Shown here piece after piece: positions 29,498 through 55,105 of a DNA stretch of 64,000 bases. How positions within the stretch are numbered: the first letter of the stretch is position 1; every line of letters begins with the position of its first letter. The notes under the pieces were generated by a model. It was given only the letters and a program-made list of their open reading frames with translations, searched no databases and was not told the origin of the DNA. The DNA is from Haladaptatus paucihalophilus DX253 (lineage in GTDB: Archaea; Halobacteriota; Halobacteria; Halobacteriales; Haladaptataceae), in contig NZ_AQXI01000001.1 of NCBI RefSeq assembly GCF_000376445.1, forward strand, positions 1,086,962 to 1,150,961, read 5' to 3'. A program made the position numbers and the translations under genes.

Positions 29498-30325
29498 TTA
29501 GCTGGCTTCCCGTTCTTCCCTGTCTTCCGTCTCGGCGAGCTTTTCGATCTCCCCCTTCGCGCTGGCGGCGTCGAAATCGTGGTCGGGGCGGATGTTCACG
29601 AAGTCGAGGAACTCGCGGGCAGCGAGGAGTTCTTCGGCCGTGTAATGCTCCCGGGCGGGTACCACGGCGTCACGAGCACCGATGAGCGGCGTGAGCGAGG
29701 CGAGCGCACAGGCGAGGTCGTACGACCTCGCCTCGTCGATTCGCTCCCCGTTCACGCTGGTCGCATCGATGAAATATATCTCTCCGTTCGCAACGAGGAC
29801 GTTTTCGCCGCGCAGGTCGCCGTGTGCGAGGTTGTTTTCGTGCATGCGCGACAGCGCCGCGAACAGGTTCGGAGCGTACGCGCGAACTTCCGTCTCGGGC
29901 ATCTGCTCGAACGTCTCGAAGTCCGGCAGGTACTCCATCACTAACACGCCGAGGTCGTCGTATTCGAACGACTCTATCGGTGCCGGGACGTTCAGCCCGA
30001 TTTCGCGCATCTTCCGCGTGGCTTCCAATTCGTGTTCGGCCATCTCCTCCGGCCCGGCGAAGTGCTCGAAGAACCCCTCGGTGCCGCTGGTGAACGCGCC
30101 GAGGTTTCGGGCGCTGGTGAACAGCGCGTGCACGAGCGAGTTCTGCCCCGTGGTTATCTTGACGAACCACTCGTCGTCCACGACGCACGGCGTCGAGAGC
30201 CAGTTATCCGCGTCGATGAACTCGACGCGAACTTCCTCGCGGTCGTACCGCTCCGCAATCTCCCGAATGACCGCCTCGATGCGCGGCCACTCTATCGTGC
30301 CACGAACCAGTCGCCGAATACCCAT
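29498..30325 (-). CDS. RIO/Bud32-like atypical protein kinase
   Basis: 275 aa. Kinase-like features are Lys56 (WFVKITTG), the catalytic loop AHGDLRGENVLV (Asp170, Asn175) and the metal Asp187 in IYFIDATS. An N-terminal extension precedes the kinase fold. The pattern HGDLRxEN, shorter than in Bud32, is typical of haloarchaeal RIO-type or phosphotransferase-like kinases. The frame is open to 30433; MGIRRLVRGT at 30325 is preferred. It diverges from the acyl-CoA dehydrogenase across the hairpin array. Confidence 0.78.
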   Translation of the reverse strand: MGIRRLVRGTIEWPRIEAVIREIAERYDREEVRVEFIDADNWLSTPCVVDDEWFVKITTGQNSLVHALFTSARNLGAFTSGTEGFFEHFAGPEEMAEHELEATRKMREIGLNVPAPIESFEYDDLGVLVMEYLPDFETFEQMPETEVRAYAPNLFAALSRMHENNLAHGDLRGENVLVANGEIYFIDATSVNGERIDEARSYDLACALASLTPLIGARDAVVPAREHYTAEELLAAREFLDFVNIRPDHDFDAASAKGEIEKLAETEDREEREAS

Positions 30326-30390
30326 CGGGGGTTGGTTAGTCCCCCCCATTGATAAAGTCACTCGCTGCACGAGACCCTTCCCTTGTGCTT

Positions 30391-30602
30391 CGGTGTCCCC
30401 ACTAACGGAGTGAGTGGGGGCTCGCAACGGCAACGCCGTTGCGGTGGTCCCGTGAACGAAGTGAGCGGGACCTCGCTACAGCTACGCTGTAGCGGTGTCT
30501 CCGCGAGTGGAACGAGCGGAGGCTCGAAGCAACGTACGTTGCTTCGGTGTCTTCAGGAGCGGAGCGACTGAAGGCTCGCCATGTCGAAGACATGGCGGTG
30601 TC
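30391..30602. repeat. Four tandem 51-52 bp units, each with two perfect but different hairpins
   Basis: The anchor CGGTGTC (one copy CGGTGGTC) recurs at 30391, 30442, 30493, 30545 and 30596. A second anchor CTCG recurs at 30421, 30472, 30523 and 30575. Between them lie alternating stems. Type A pairs are 30397-30403/30413-30419, 30447-30452/30466-30471, 30499-30504/30516-30521 and 30551-30556/30568-30573. Type B pairs are 30424-30431/30435-30442, 30475-30482/30486-30493, 30526-30535/30536-30545 and 30578-30585/30589-30596. Every stem has a different sequence but keeps pairing, while the loops and anchors are similar. It occupies the divergent region between the kinase and acyl-CoA dehydrogenase genes, ending at the latter's TATA box. 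Function unknown. Confidence 0.9.
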
Positions 30603-30632
30603 TTTATAGCCAAACCCGCGCAAAAATTGCGC
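30603..30632 (+). promoter_or_regulatory. TATA box and operator-like palindrome of the acyl-CoA dehydrogenase gene
   Basis: TTTATA (30603-30608) is 25-30 bases before the ATG at 30633. Between them, GCGCAAAAATTGCGC (30618-30632) is a perfect 6+6 palindrome ending at the start codon, where transcription would begin. A repressor site is a reasonable inference. Confidence 0.5.
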
Positions 30633-31775
30633 ATGGATTTCAACCTTCCCGGCGAACACAAGATGGTGCGGGACACCGTTCGGGAGTTCTGTGACGAGGA
30701 AATCGAACCGATTGCACAGGAGATAGAGACCGAACACCGATTCCCCGCGGAGATTTTCGACGAACTCGCCGCTCTCGACATGATGGGCGTTCCCGTCAGC
30801 GAGGAGTACGGCGGACTGGGCGGCGACCAGTTGATGTACGCCCTCGTCGCAGAGGAACTGGGTCGCGTGTCCGGGTCCATCGGCCTCTCGTATGCTGCGC
30901 ACATCTCGCTGGCGTCGAAACCAATCGAGATGTTCGGCACCGAAGAACAGAAAGAGAGGTGGCTGACGCCGCTCGCGGAGGGCGAATACCTCGGCTCGTG
31001 GGCGCTCACCGAACCCGGCTCCGGCTCCGACGCCAGCGACATGGACACCACCGCGGAGAAGGACGGCGACGAGTGGGTCATCAACGGCACGAAGCAGTTC
31101 ATCACGAACGCCAGCGTCGCGGGAAGCGTCCTCGTGAAGGCCGTCACGGACTCCGACGCGGGCTACGGCGGCATCTCGACGTTCATCGTGGACCCCGAAG
31201 AGGACGACGGCTTCGAGGTCACGACCGTCTGGGACAAGATGGGACTGAACGCCTCGCCCACCTGTGAAATCCAGTTCACCGACTGCCGCGTTCCCGAGGA
31301 CCGACTGCTCGGCGAGGAGGGCGACGGCTGGGAACAGACGAAGAAGACCCTCGACGGCGGCAGAATTAGCATCGCCGCGCTCTCAACCGGCATCGCGCAG
31401 GGTGCCTACGAGGCGGCCCACGAGTACAGTCAGGAGCGCGAGCAGTTCGGGAAGCCCATCTCGAAGTTCGACGCCATCCGCAACAAAATCGTGGACATGG
31501 ACCGCAAAATCGAGCGCTCGCGCCTGCTGACCCACAAAGCGGCGTGCAAGTACGACGAAGGCTACTCCGTCTCCCACGAGAGCGCGCTGGCGAAACTCGA
31601 CGCCAGCGAGTCCGCGCGGAAGGTCTCGGAAGACGCCGTACAGGTTCTCGGCGGCTACGGCTACACCGAGGATTTCGCCCCGCAGCGGTTCCTCCGCGAC
31701 GCGAAACTGATGGAAATCGGCGAGGGTACCAGCGAGATTCAGCACCTCGTTATCGGGCGCGAGCTGGGACTGTAA
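30633..31775 (+). CDS. Acyl-CoA dehydrogenase
   Basis: 380 aa FAD enzyme that introduces the alpha-beta double bond in acyl-CoA. Signatures are ALTEPGSGSDASDM (FAD/substrate), ITNASVAGSV, and the C-terminal QVLGGYGYTEDFAPQRFLRDAKLMEIGEGTSEIQ with the catalytic base at Glu364. Chain specificity (short, medium or branched) is not decided. The start at 30633 is set by the TATA box; the upstream ORF extension through the hairpin array is not coding. Confidence 0.95.
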   Translation: MDFNLPGEHKMVRDTVREFCDEEIEPIAQEIETEHRFPAEIFDELAALDMMGVPVSEEYGGLGGDQLMYALVAEELGRVSGSIGLSYAAHISLASKPIEMFGTEEQKERWLTPLAEGEYLGSWALTEPGSGSDASDMDTTAEKDGDEWVINGTKQFITNASVAGSVLVKAVTDSDAGYGGISTFIVDPEEDDGFEVTTVWDKMGLNASPTCEIQFTDCRVPEDRLLGEEGDGWEQTKKTLDGGRISIAALSTGIAQGAYEAAHEYSQEREQFGKPISKFDAIRNKIVDMDRKIERSRLLTHKAACKYDEGYSVSHESALAKLDASESARKVSEDAVQVLGGYGYTEDFAPQRFLRDAKLMEIGEGTSEIQHLVIGRELGL

Positions 31776-37237: not shown

Positions 37238-37296
37238 TTCGGCCCGAATCTCGATTTTCGCACCGATTTCTCCCCGTTCAGTGGCGACTCTCCTCA

Positions 37297-37348
37297 TCGG
37301 TCGAAAGAGAATTTCCTCTCGGTCGAAAGAGAATTTCCTCTCGGTCGA
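37297..37348. repeat. 22-bp tandem repeat, 2.4 copies
   Basis: The block beginning TCGGTCGAAAGAGAATTTCC is repeated exactly at 37297-37318 and 37319-37340, with eight bases of a third copy. It lies in the 320-base gene-free interval 37238-37557, which otherwise holds only two small hairpins. Confidence 0.85.
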
Positions 37349-53543: not shown

Positions 53544-54881
53544 ATGACAGCCGTCGGTATCGACGCCATCGAAATTTGGACGGGCAAGCTGAAACTCGAC
53601 CTCCCCGAGACGTTCGCACCGGTCAAGGACGAAGACCCGGAGAAGTACACGAAAGGGCTCGGACTGTACGCCAGTTCGTTCCCCGACTCCTACGAGGACA
53701 TCGTGACGATGGGCGCGAACGCGGCCCATCGACTGATGGAGCGCAAGGGGTTGACGCCGGACGACATCGGCCGCATCGACGTGGCGACCGAGAGCGCGTT
53801 CGACAACTCCAAGCCCGTTTCGACGTACATCGCGGGCTGCCTCGAACAGGTGTACGACGGTGACTTCCACCACGCGAACAAGGGCGAGCGCAAGTTCGCC
53901 TGCATCGCCGGAACCCAGAGTCTGGACGACGCCTACAACTGGATCAAGGCGGGTCGCAACCGCGGGCGCTCGGCGCTCGTCATCGCAACCGACACCGCGC
54001 TGTACGCCCGCGGCGACCCCGGCGAGGCGACGCAGGGTGCGGGTGCCGTGGCGATGCTCATCAGCGAGGATCCGTCCATCGTCGAACTCTCGACCGAACA
54101 GGGCTACGGGTCGGCCGACGAGACCGACTTCCTCAAGCCCAACCAGCAGTTCCCCAGCGTGGACGGCAAGCGCTCCATGCAGGTCTACCTCGCTCGCATG
54201 CGCGAGGCGCTGGAGGACTTCGAGCGCGCCGGTGGGGAGACCCACCCCGGCGATTACGTCTTCGGCCCGTACCACACGCCGTTCCCCGGAATGGTCCGCA
54301 AGGCGGGGCTGTTCGCCTTCCGTCACACCATCCGTGACACGGACATCGAGGAGGAACTCGCCGCCGAAATCGGCCGCCAGCCCCGCGAGGACGACTACGA
54401 CGACCGCGAGGCGTTCGAGGAGGCCATCCGCGGGTACATGGACGACCTCAAGGCGACCGATCAGTATCAGGAGTGGTACGCGAACACCATCGACCCGACG
54501 CTCCGCATCTCGCGCGAGGTCGGCAACTGGTACACCGGCTCGGTTCACATCGCCCGCGCCTCGGCGCTCCAGTACGCCGCCGAAAACGACATGGAGATGA
54601 CGGGCAAGAAACTTCTCGTCGGCTCCTACGGCAGCGGCGCACAGGCCGAAATCCACGCCGAAACCGTCCAAGAGGGCTGGGAAGAGGAACTCGACCAGCT
54701 CTCCATCGACGAGCAGATTCGAAACCGTCACGACCTCACCTACGAGGAGTACGAGCAGGTCCACGACCGCCACAACCACGACAAGCGCGTCGAACTCGAA
54801 GACTTCACGGAACCCGAAAACGAGTTCGTCTTCGTCGGCCGCGGAGACATGGACGAGCGAACGTACGAATACGTCGAATAA
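53544..54881 (+). CDS. Hydroxymethylglutaryl-CoA synthase
   Basis: 445 aa. It condenses acetyl-CoA with acetoacetyl-CoA, the entry to the mevalonate pathway for archaeal isoprenoid lipids. Catalytic Cys120 is in RKFACIAGTQSLDD, Glu83 in VATESAFDNSKP and His244 in GPYHTPFPGMV. The TATA box position fixes ATG 53544. The last codons (tac gtc gaa taa) are the first copy of a 28-bp tandem repeat. Confidence 0.95.
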   Translation: MTAVGIDAIEIWTGKLKLDLPETFAPVKDEDPEKYTKGLGLYASSFPDSYEDIVTMGANAAHRLMERKGLTPDDIGRIDVATESAFDNSKPVSTYIAGCLEQVYDGDFHHANKGERKFACIAGTQSLDDAYNWIKAGRNRGRSALVIATDTALYARGDPGEATQGAGAVAMLISEDPSIVELSTEQGYGSADETDFLKPNQQFPSVDGKRSMQVYLARMREALEDFERAGGETHPGDYVFGPYHTPFPGMVRKAGLFAFRHTIRDTDIEEELAAEIGRQPREDDYDDREAFEEAIRGYMDDLKATDQYQEWYANTIDPTLRISREVGNWYTGSVHIARASALQYAAENDMEMTGKKLLVGSYGSGAQAEIHAETVQEGWEEELDQLSIDEQIRNRHDLTYEEYEQVHDRHNHDKRVELEDFTEPENEFVFVGRGDMDERTYEYVE

Positions 54882-54968
54882 GACGACGACGCGCCGGTAC
54901 GTCGAATAAGACGACGACGCACCGGTACGTCGAATAAGACGACGACGCACCGGTACGTCGAATAACCC
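54870..54968. repeat. 28-bp tandem repeat that begins with the stop codon of HMG-CoA synthase
   Basis: Copies start at 54870, 54898 and 54926, with a partial fourth at 54954. Each begins TACGTCGAATAA and continues with a run of GAC/GAC units. The first copy supplies the gene's last three codons and stop; the others lie beyond. The copies differ at one base (GCGCC vs GCACC). Confidence 0.9.
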
Positions 54969-55105
54969 GACGACACGCGGTTTTGTCCCGTTCTATTTTC
55001 CGACGACCTTCCGCCAACAAACGATTTAACCGCGTCGCACCCGTCCGTGCGACTACACGACACGCGCCCGACGGTGAACCACAAGCCGACGCGACCACCA
55101 TCGAA

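Follow-up and report, generated by a model that had tools for sequence, protein, structure and literature searches.

The array at positions 30395-30598 of the window (the whole stretch of 64,000 nucleotides from Haladaptatus paucihalophilus DX253 analysed in this work) is probably made up of tandem copies of a palindromic insertion element of haloarchaea, about 51 bp long and constituted by two hairpins, A and B, and one pyrimidine. Between its two promoters, the array would be mostly tolerated passenger DNA. This reading integrates the architecture of the array, its history in sister species, the dispersal of the unit among haloarchaea and its in-frame presence in protein genes.

The array comprises four units of 50-51 bp, each with one joining base, located at 30395-30444, 30446-30495, 30497-30547 and 30549-30598, with a spacing of 51, 51 and 52 bp. 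Read 5' to 3' on the + strand, every unit displays hairpin A, directly followed by hairpin B and then by a T. Hairpin A has the form GTC-N5, GA, 2 bp, a purine-rich 3-nt loop, 2 bp, GA and N5-GGC (8 + 2 bp paired), except in unit 1, where TA replaces the first GA; hairpin B has the form TCG-N7, a loop of 3-4 nt and N7-CGG (10 bp). On the + strand, the A hairpins lie at 30395-30421 (unit 1, GTCCCCAC TA AC GGA GT GA GTGGGGGC), 30446-30472 (unit 2, with the base variant GGT..ACC), 30497-30523 (unit 3, whose homologue is a unit of sister species G004 with both-sided changes) and 30549-30575 (unit 4), and the B hairpins at 30422-30444 (unit 1, TCGCAACGGC AAC GCCGTTGCGG), 30473-30495 (unit 2), 30524-30547 (unit 3, with a 4-nt loop) and 30576-30598 (unit 4, CCATGTC..GACATGG, in which the same pair is C-G or A-T in sister species). 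The pentamer CGGTG ahead of unit 1 (30391-30395, + strand), proposed as a target or junction sequence CGGYG from flank statistics and an empty site in PurA, recurs on the same strand at 30442-30446, 30493-30497, 30545-30549 and 30596-30600.

Standard pairs occupied 80/80 stem cells of the four units, and both-sided changes between units were found at 14 of the 20 pairs, a combination of pairing and changes equalled by none of 500 shuffles. These results confirm the preliminary description of four tandem units of 51-52 bp with eight stems, in which sequence drifts while pairing is kept. The RNA fold of the array reached -125.5 kcal/mol on the + strand (z -7.6) and -105.9 kcal/mol on the - strand (z -8.8), in both cases unmatched by any shuffle. 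The anchors CGGTGTC and CTCG, initially considered as fixed, do recur, but they belong to the stems, with GTC opposite GGC and TCG opposite CGG (the T-G wobbles pair on the + strand only), and unit 2 reads CGGTGGTC instead of CGGTGTC; similarly, the stems were described as perfectly paired, and while all pair cells are indeed standard, the A stems hold a 2x2 internal loop. A CRISPR, with identical repeats and unique spacers, was rejected as in that description, because the stems differ between units and spacers are absent, and no curated Rfam family matched 30200-30800 up to E 1, in agreement with the earlier view that this is no known riboswitch. Elsewhere in the window, TRF reported a 28 bp tandem repeat of 3.8 copies at 54870-54974 and a 22 bp tandem repeat of 2.6 copies at 37291-37348.

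The array is flanked by a RIO-like kinase gene (29498-30325, - strand) and an acyl-CoA dehydrogenase gene (30633-31775, + strand), with the promoters previously assigned to them: the dehydrogenase TATA box, TTTATA, lies at 30603-30608 on the + strand, 27 bp ahead of the ATG at 30633, as recognized from the sequence and from sister loci, and the TATA-like box of the kinase, TTTATCA, at 30350-30356 on the - strand, 28 bp ahead of the ATG at 30325, as recognized from the sequence. Given these distances, leaderless transcripts are expected for both genes, and the array, located upstream of the two, would thus be outside both of them. The kinase-dehydrogenase gap was compared in nine Haladaptatus genomes, with units parsed or judged by eye: four units are present in our genome, four plus a remnant in G004, four in G003, two in G005, about 2-3 in G008 and 1-2 in G006, the latter gap (L108) carrying approximately 450 bp of additional DNA ahead of the remnant units. 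The gap of G001 holds one A hairpin, which is reversed, and those of G002 and G007 hold no units and read GCTTCGCTGTCTTTATAG, similar in sequence to our own junction GCTTCGGTGTC; the dehydrogenase TATA region is intact in the species without the array or with the single reversed A hairpin. As G002 and G007 are nested in the kinase tree, the simplest history is that of an ancestral array with later losses; by parsimony, the array would have occupied this locus since the ancestor of the genus, which could hint at some use. Between species, homologous hairpins differed mostly by paired changes: double changes that kept the pair, changes to or from a wobble and broken pairs numbered 40, 14 and 13, respectively, in the A hairpins and 28, 9 and 15 in the B hairpins, in comparisons that are not independent of one another.

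A covariance model built from the four array units revealed that the unit is a dispersed repeat, present also inside proteins, and not special to this divergent promoter as had been supposed. Scoring covered the best 101 candidates of each genome, which makes the counts lower bounds: at least 36 matches (E < 0.005) were obtained in our genome, every one on the main chromosome, and matches were present in at least 52 of 59 haloarchaeal genomes, the richest with at least 91. The intergenic copies of our genome occupy unrelated sites in mixed orientation, with no consistent relation to the orientation of neighbouring genes, according to rough gene calls. The commonest B stem is TCAGAGC, and its exact pattern was present only in haloarchaeal records of a genome collection in which 84,980 species are represented by one genome each. 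Among 134 matches, 97.2% of cells were paired compared with 75.4% in shuffles, and both-sided changes occurred at 19 of the 20 pairs, in an alignment of related sequences that was fitted to the model and is biased towards the structure of that model. A model-free check of A-type hairpins with tandem GA identified a GNA triloop in 58 of 70; further, with one pair of the pattern left free, 36 of 41 copies were complementary compared with 14.4 expected, and none of 20000 shuffles was as high. Conserved wobbles were found at A pair 2 (105/121) and B pair 1 (99/124). The anchor pattern GGCTCG..CGGTG alone was not enriched genome-wide (67 matches versus 75 in the control), in contrast to the subset with paired stems; viral contigs lacked exact matches to two patterns of the family. 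The preliminary description had anticipated that such a search might yield either homologous copies with preserved pairing or decayed copies of a mobile element. Many homologous copies were recovered, most with pairing preserved; the units elsewhere do largely appear as copies of a mobile element, but these are not simply decayed, since most are still paired.

Other arrangements were also observed. At about locus position 1500 of L014/L055 (G000:C1, near 610,285), a unit and several hairpins lie directly 5' of a tRNA-Gln(TTG)-like gene. Longer composites occur at L004, L008, L032, L071, L081, L093, L136, L150, L155, L163 and L170, in the order of a leading hairpin ending in GCGAG, A, B with TCAGAGC, TGGATGAG and a tail near AATCGGTTGGGGAGG; these may represent either the element from which the unit derives or a multicopy RNA in its own right.

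Copies within protein genes are particularly informative. In our genome, PurA and PheT each contain an in-frame unit, and a DUF62-like gene contains an A hairpin in frame (product names judged from the sequences); the encoded insert is a peptide of 16-17 residues, VSxSEAxGGS... The PurA insert comprises 16 residues in our species and 13 in G004, is absent from PurA of the seven other sister species as judged by match length, and falls in a gap against 4m0g. The empty site of G001, TTCGGCGTCGAG, contains CGGCGTC, and alignment of TTC GGC GTC GAG in G001 with GGC GTC..GAC GGC GTC GAA in our species shows that GGCGTC borders the insert on either side. The PurA copy of G004 lost its B hairpin after insertion, a single case which suggests that pairing is needed for the spread of the element and not for the host. 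Among the sister species, the PheT insert is found only in our species and G004 (L184/L185), at one insertion site with differing hairpins, suggesting rapid turnover at that site.

A pattern search of 392 genomes identified 41 copies in 33 genomes. Thirty loci were read, and 21 of these lie in open coding frames, all 21 on the + strand and in phase 0; TrpA (L209, L210) escaped the coding score and is outside these 21. Pfam names at the coding loci include NAD kinase, EtfA, iPGM, ABC transporter ATPase, GATase, aconitase, OTCase, MetRS and a flavoprotein of the succinate dehydrogenase type; enzymes holding an in-frame unit include PurA, PheT, TrpA, EtfA, aconitase, ornithine carbamoyltransferase and methionyl-tRNA synthetase. 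Comparison of one OTCase (L230) with 1pvv left a 17-residue gap, and the annotated CDSs of three plasmid records include the unit in identical phase. The peptide VSxSxAxGGS was found in 11 variants, part of it being fixed by the search pattern itself. As both free bases of the pair are second codon positions, pairing is visible in the proteins as linked residues (VSASEAS, VSGSEAT, VSVSEAN), namely the couples A-S, G-T and V-N. Two P-type ATPases (L233, L234) carry, beside a normal B hairpin, an in-frame A hairpin variant without the GA internal loop, such as GTCTCCGGC..GCCGGAGGC.

The boundaries of the unit are equally regular. In 68 isolated units, the left flank showed C at -4 in 52, G at -3 in 53 and G at -2 in 43, that is, mostly CGGY ahead of GTC, and the right flank after CGG was mostly Y followed by G in 67 of the 68; CGGYG is also the joint between array units. 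The match of the outer Y between left and right was weak (Fisher p 0.03). From these sequences we infer insertion at CGGYG and restoration of this pentamer: the element would insert at CGGYG and itself end in CGGYG, so that every insertion would restore the target and different family members could stack in tandem and in register, which would account for neighbouring units sharing the same frame with unrelated stems. Spread would occur as a folded single strand, either ssDNA or RNA, with the hairpin shape and anchors recognized by a putative enzyme of the host or of a mobile element; this kind of recognition would be in keeping with a shape that is conserved while the sequence is free to vary, with the fixed polarity of the strand, and with the tandem GA mismatches and GNA triloops. 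Alternatively, a mutational process could keep the stems paired. A serious possibility, although somewhat less likely than not, is the complete scheme of a selfish palindromic element that regenerates its pentamer target, builds tandem arrays of unrelated members, moves as a folded single strand by means of a non-Y1 enzyme and, through in-frame insertion, has extended core enzymes by extra peptides throughout an archaeal order.

Other explanations have to be weighed against the insertion element. Hairpins of ssDNA are compatible with tandem GA mismatches and GNA triloops, as illustrated by d(GCGAAGC), which would be in accordance with REPs, or with terminal parts or relics of IS200/IS605-type elements (PATEs), moved by a Y1 transposase; moreover, Haloquadratum contains PATEs that are heterogeneous palindromes lacking terminal inverted repeats and target duplication, some measuring only 52 bp (PMC3119063). 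Nevertheless, no Y1_Tnp was found in our genome, its three TnpB loci contain no unit, and Y1_Tnp and unit copy number (counted as at least values) were uncorrelated across 59 genomes (rho -0.05); this origin is unlikely, and membership in PATE/IS200-IS605 was rejected on these grounds. Remaking of the hairpins in place by replication template switching (quasipalindrome correction), with little transposition, would explain why adjoining units have wholly different stems that are still paired and why the PheT inserts of two close species differ at one site, and the flank of L090 (match 1501-1550) repeats the A 5' arm (CGTTCTCGCG) for 10 bases directly 3' of the element, in a single case. However, fixed anchors, a fixed length of 51 bp, a B sequence, TCAGAGC, common to many unlinked sites, and whole-unit in-frame insertions all need copying, which makes this process rather improbable; matching of flank and stem is not general, and copying of the host flank by the stems was rejected as a general rule.

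A functional role of the structure was considered as well, either at this locus or in trans. A cis-regulatory structure in the divergent promoter, formed as RNA or as a cruciform, with hairpins that buffer supercoiling or insulate the promoters, would be consistent with eight perfect stems that stop at the TATA box, and with units retained in six of the nine sister species with pairing mostly intact. It appears quite unlikely, considering that the dehydrogenase TATA region is intact in the two species without the array and in the one with a lone reversed A hairpin, that units also occur within coding genes and, in either orientation, at intergenic sites with no relation to one another, and that neither of the expected transcripts would include the array; a reading as a local structural switch is unsupported, with the array absent or reduced in three of the nine species. 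A multicopy family of structured noncoding RNA, whose + strand transcript with U-G wobbles and GNA loops would bind a protein or act in trans, would agree with conserved wobbles that pair on one strand only (A pair 2 and B pair 1), with the stronger RNA fold of the + strand and with the longer composites sharing a conserved tail. This is very improbable in view of the lack of Rfam matches, the copies in frame in coding genes, most copies sharing no promoter or tail, and the decay of structure after insertion in PurA of G004; besides, the wobbles could equally mark one strand of ssDNA.

In-frame selfish palindromes have so far been chiefly a matter of Rickettsia. If the insertion-element reading is true, a 51-bp archaeal element in central enzymes would imply that the in-frame strategy arose elsewhere too, odd insertions in haloarchaeal proteins would be explained, and cultured haloarchaea would provide a workable system to find the mobilising enzyme. 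Furthermore, strong covariation can flag a mobile hairpin rather than a functional RNA.

A literature search, mostly outside subscription papers, yielded no account of an element of this kind from haloarchaea, and several known systems offer points of comparison. REPs have been described (PMC3733652) as extragenic and mostly tagged with GTAG or CGTC; the haloarchaeal unit resembles the REP/RAYT system in being a short dispersed palindrome, frequently clustered, and differs from it, as described there, in its anchors (GTC/GGC and TCG/CGG), its many copies in genes and the absence of a Y1 protein, so that membership, with neither that tag nor an extragenic position, was rejected. The SMRs of Haloquadratum are likewise small mobile repeats without a known transposase, but they measure 80-110 bp, have inverted termini, and SMR-A prefers insertion into PATEs. 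PATEs and the unit described here are both haloarchaeal, short, heterogeneous and palindromic, without terminal inverted repeats, and some PATEs are of about the same length; PATE ends match IS605-type elements, in contrast to the lack of a Y1 transposase and of units at TnpB loci in our genome, and in-frame insertion is not among the PATE features in the available part of their description. Rickettsia palindromic elements (RPEs) are palindromic, dispersed, and in frame in unrelated metabolic genes, where they encode a conserved, tolerated peptide (PMC10969869); the haloarchaeal unit is also palindromic, dispersed and in frame in unrelated protein genes, in a single phase and strand, and encodes a conserved peptide. 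RPEs are about 150 bp long, compared with 50-51 bp in most haloarchaeal copies, and the latter differ in their two hairpins, tandem arrays and paired stem variation. By this analogy, the haloarchaeal unit would work like a Rickettsia palindromic element, and in form it resembles the PATEs of haloarchaea.
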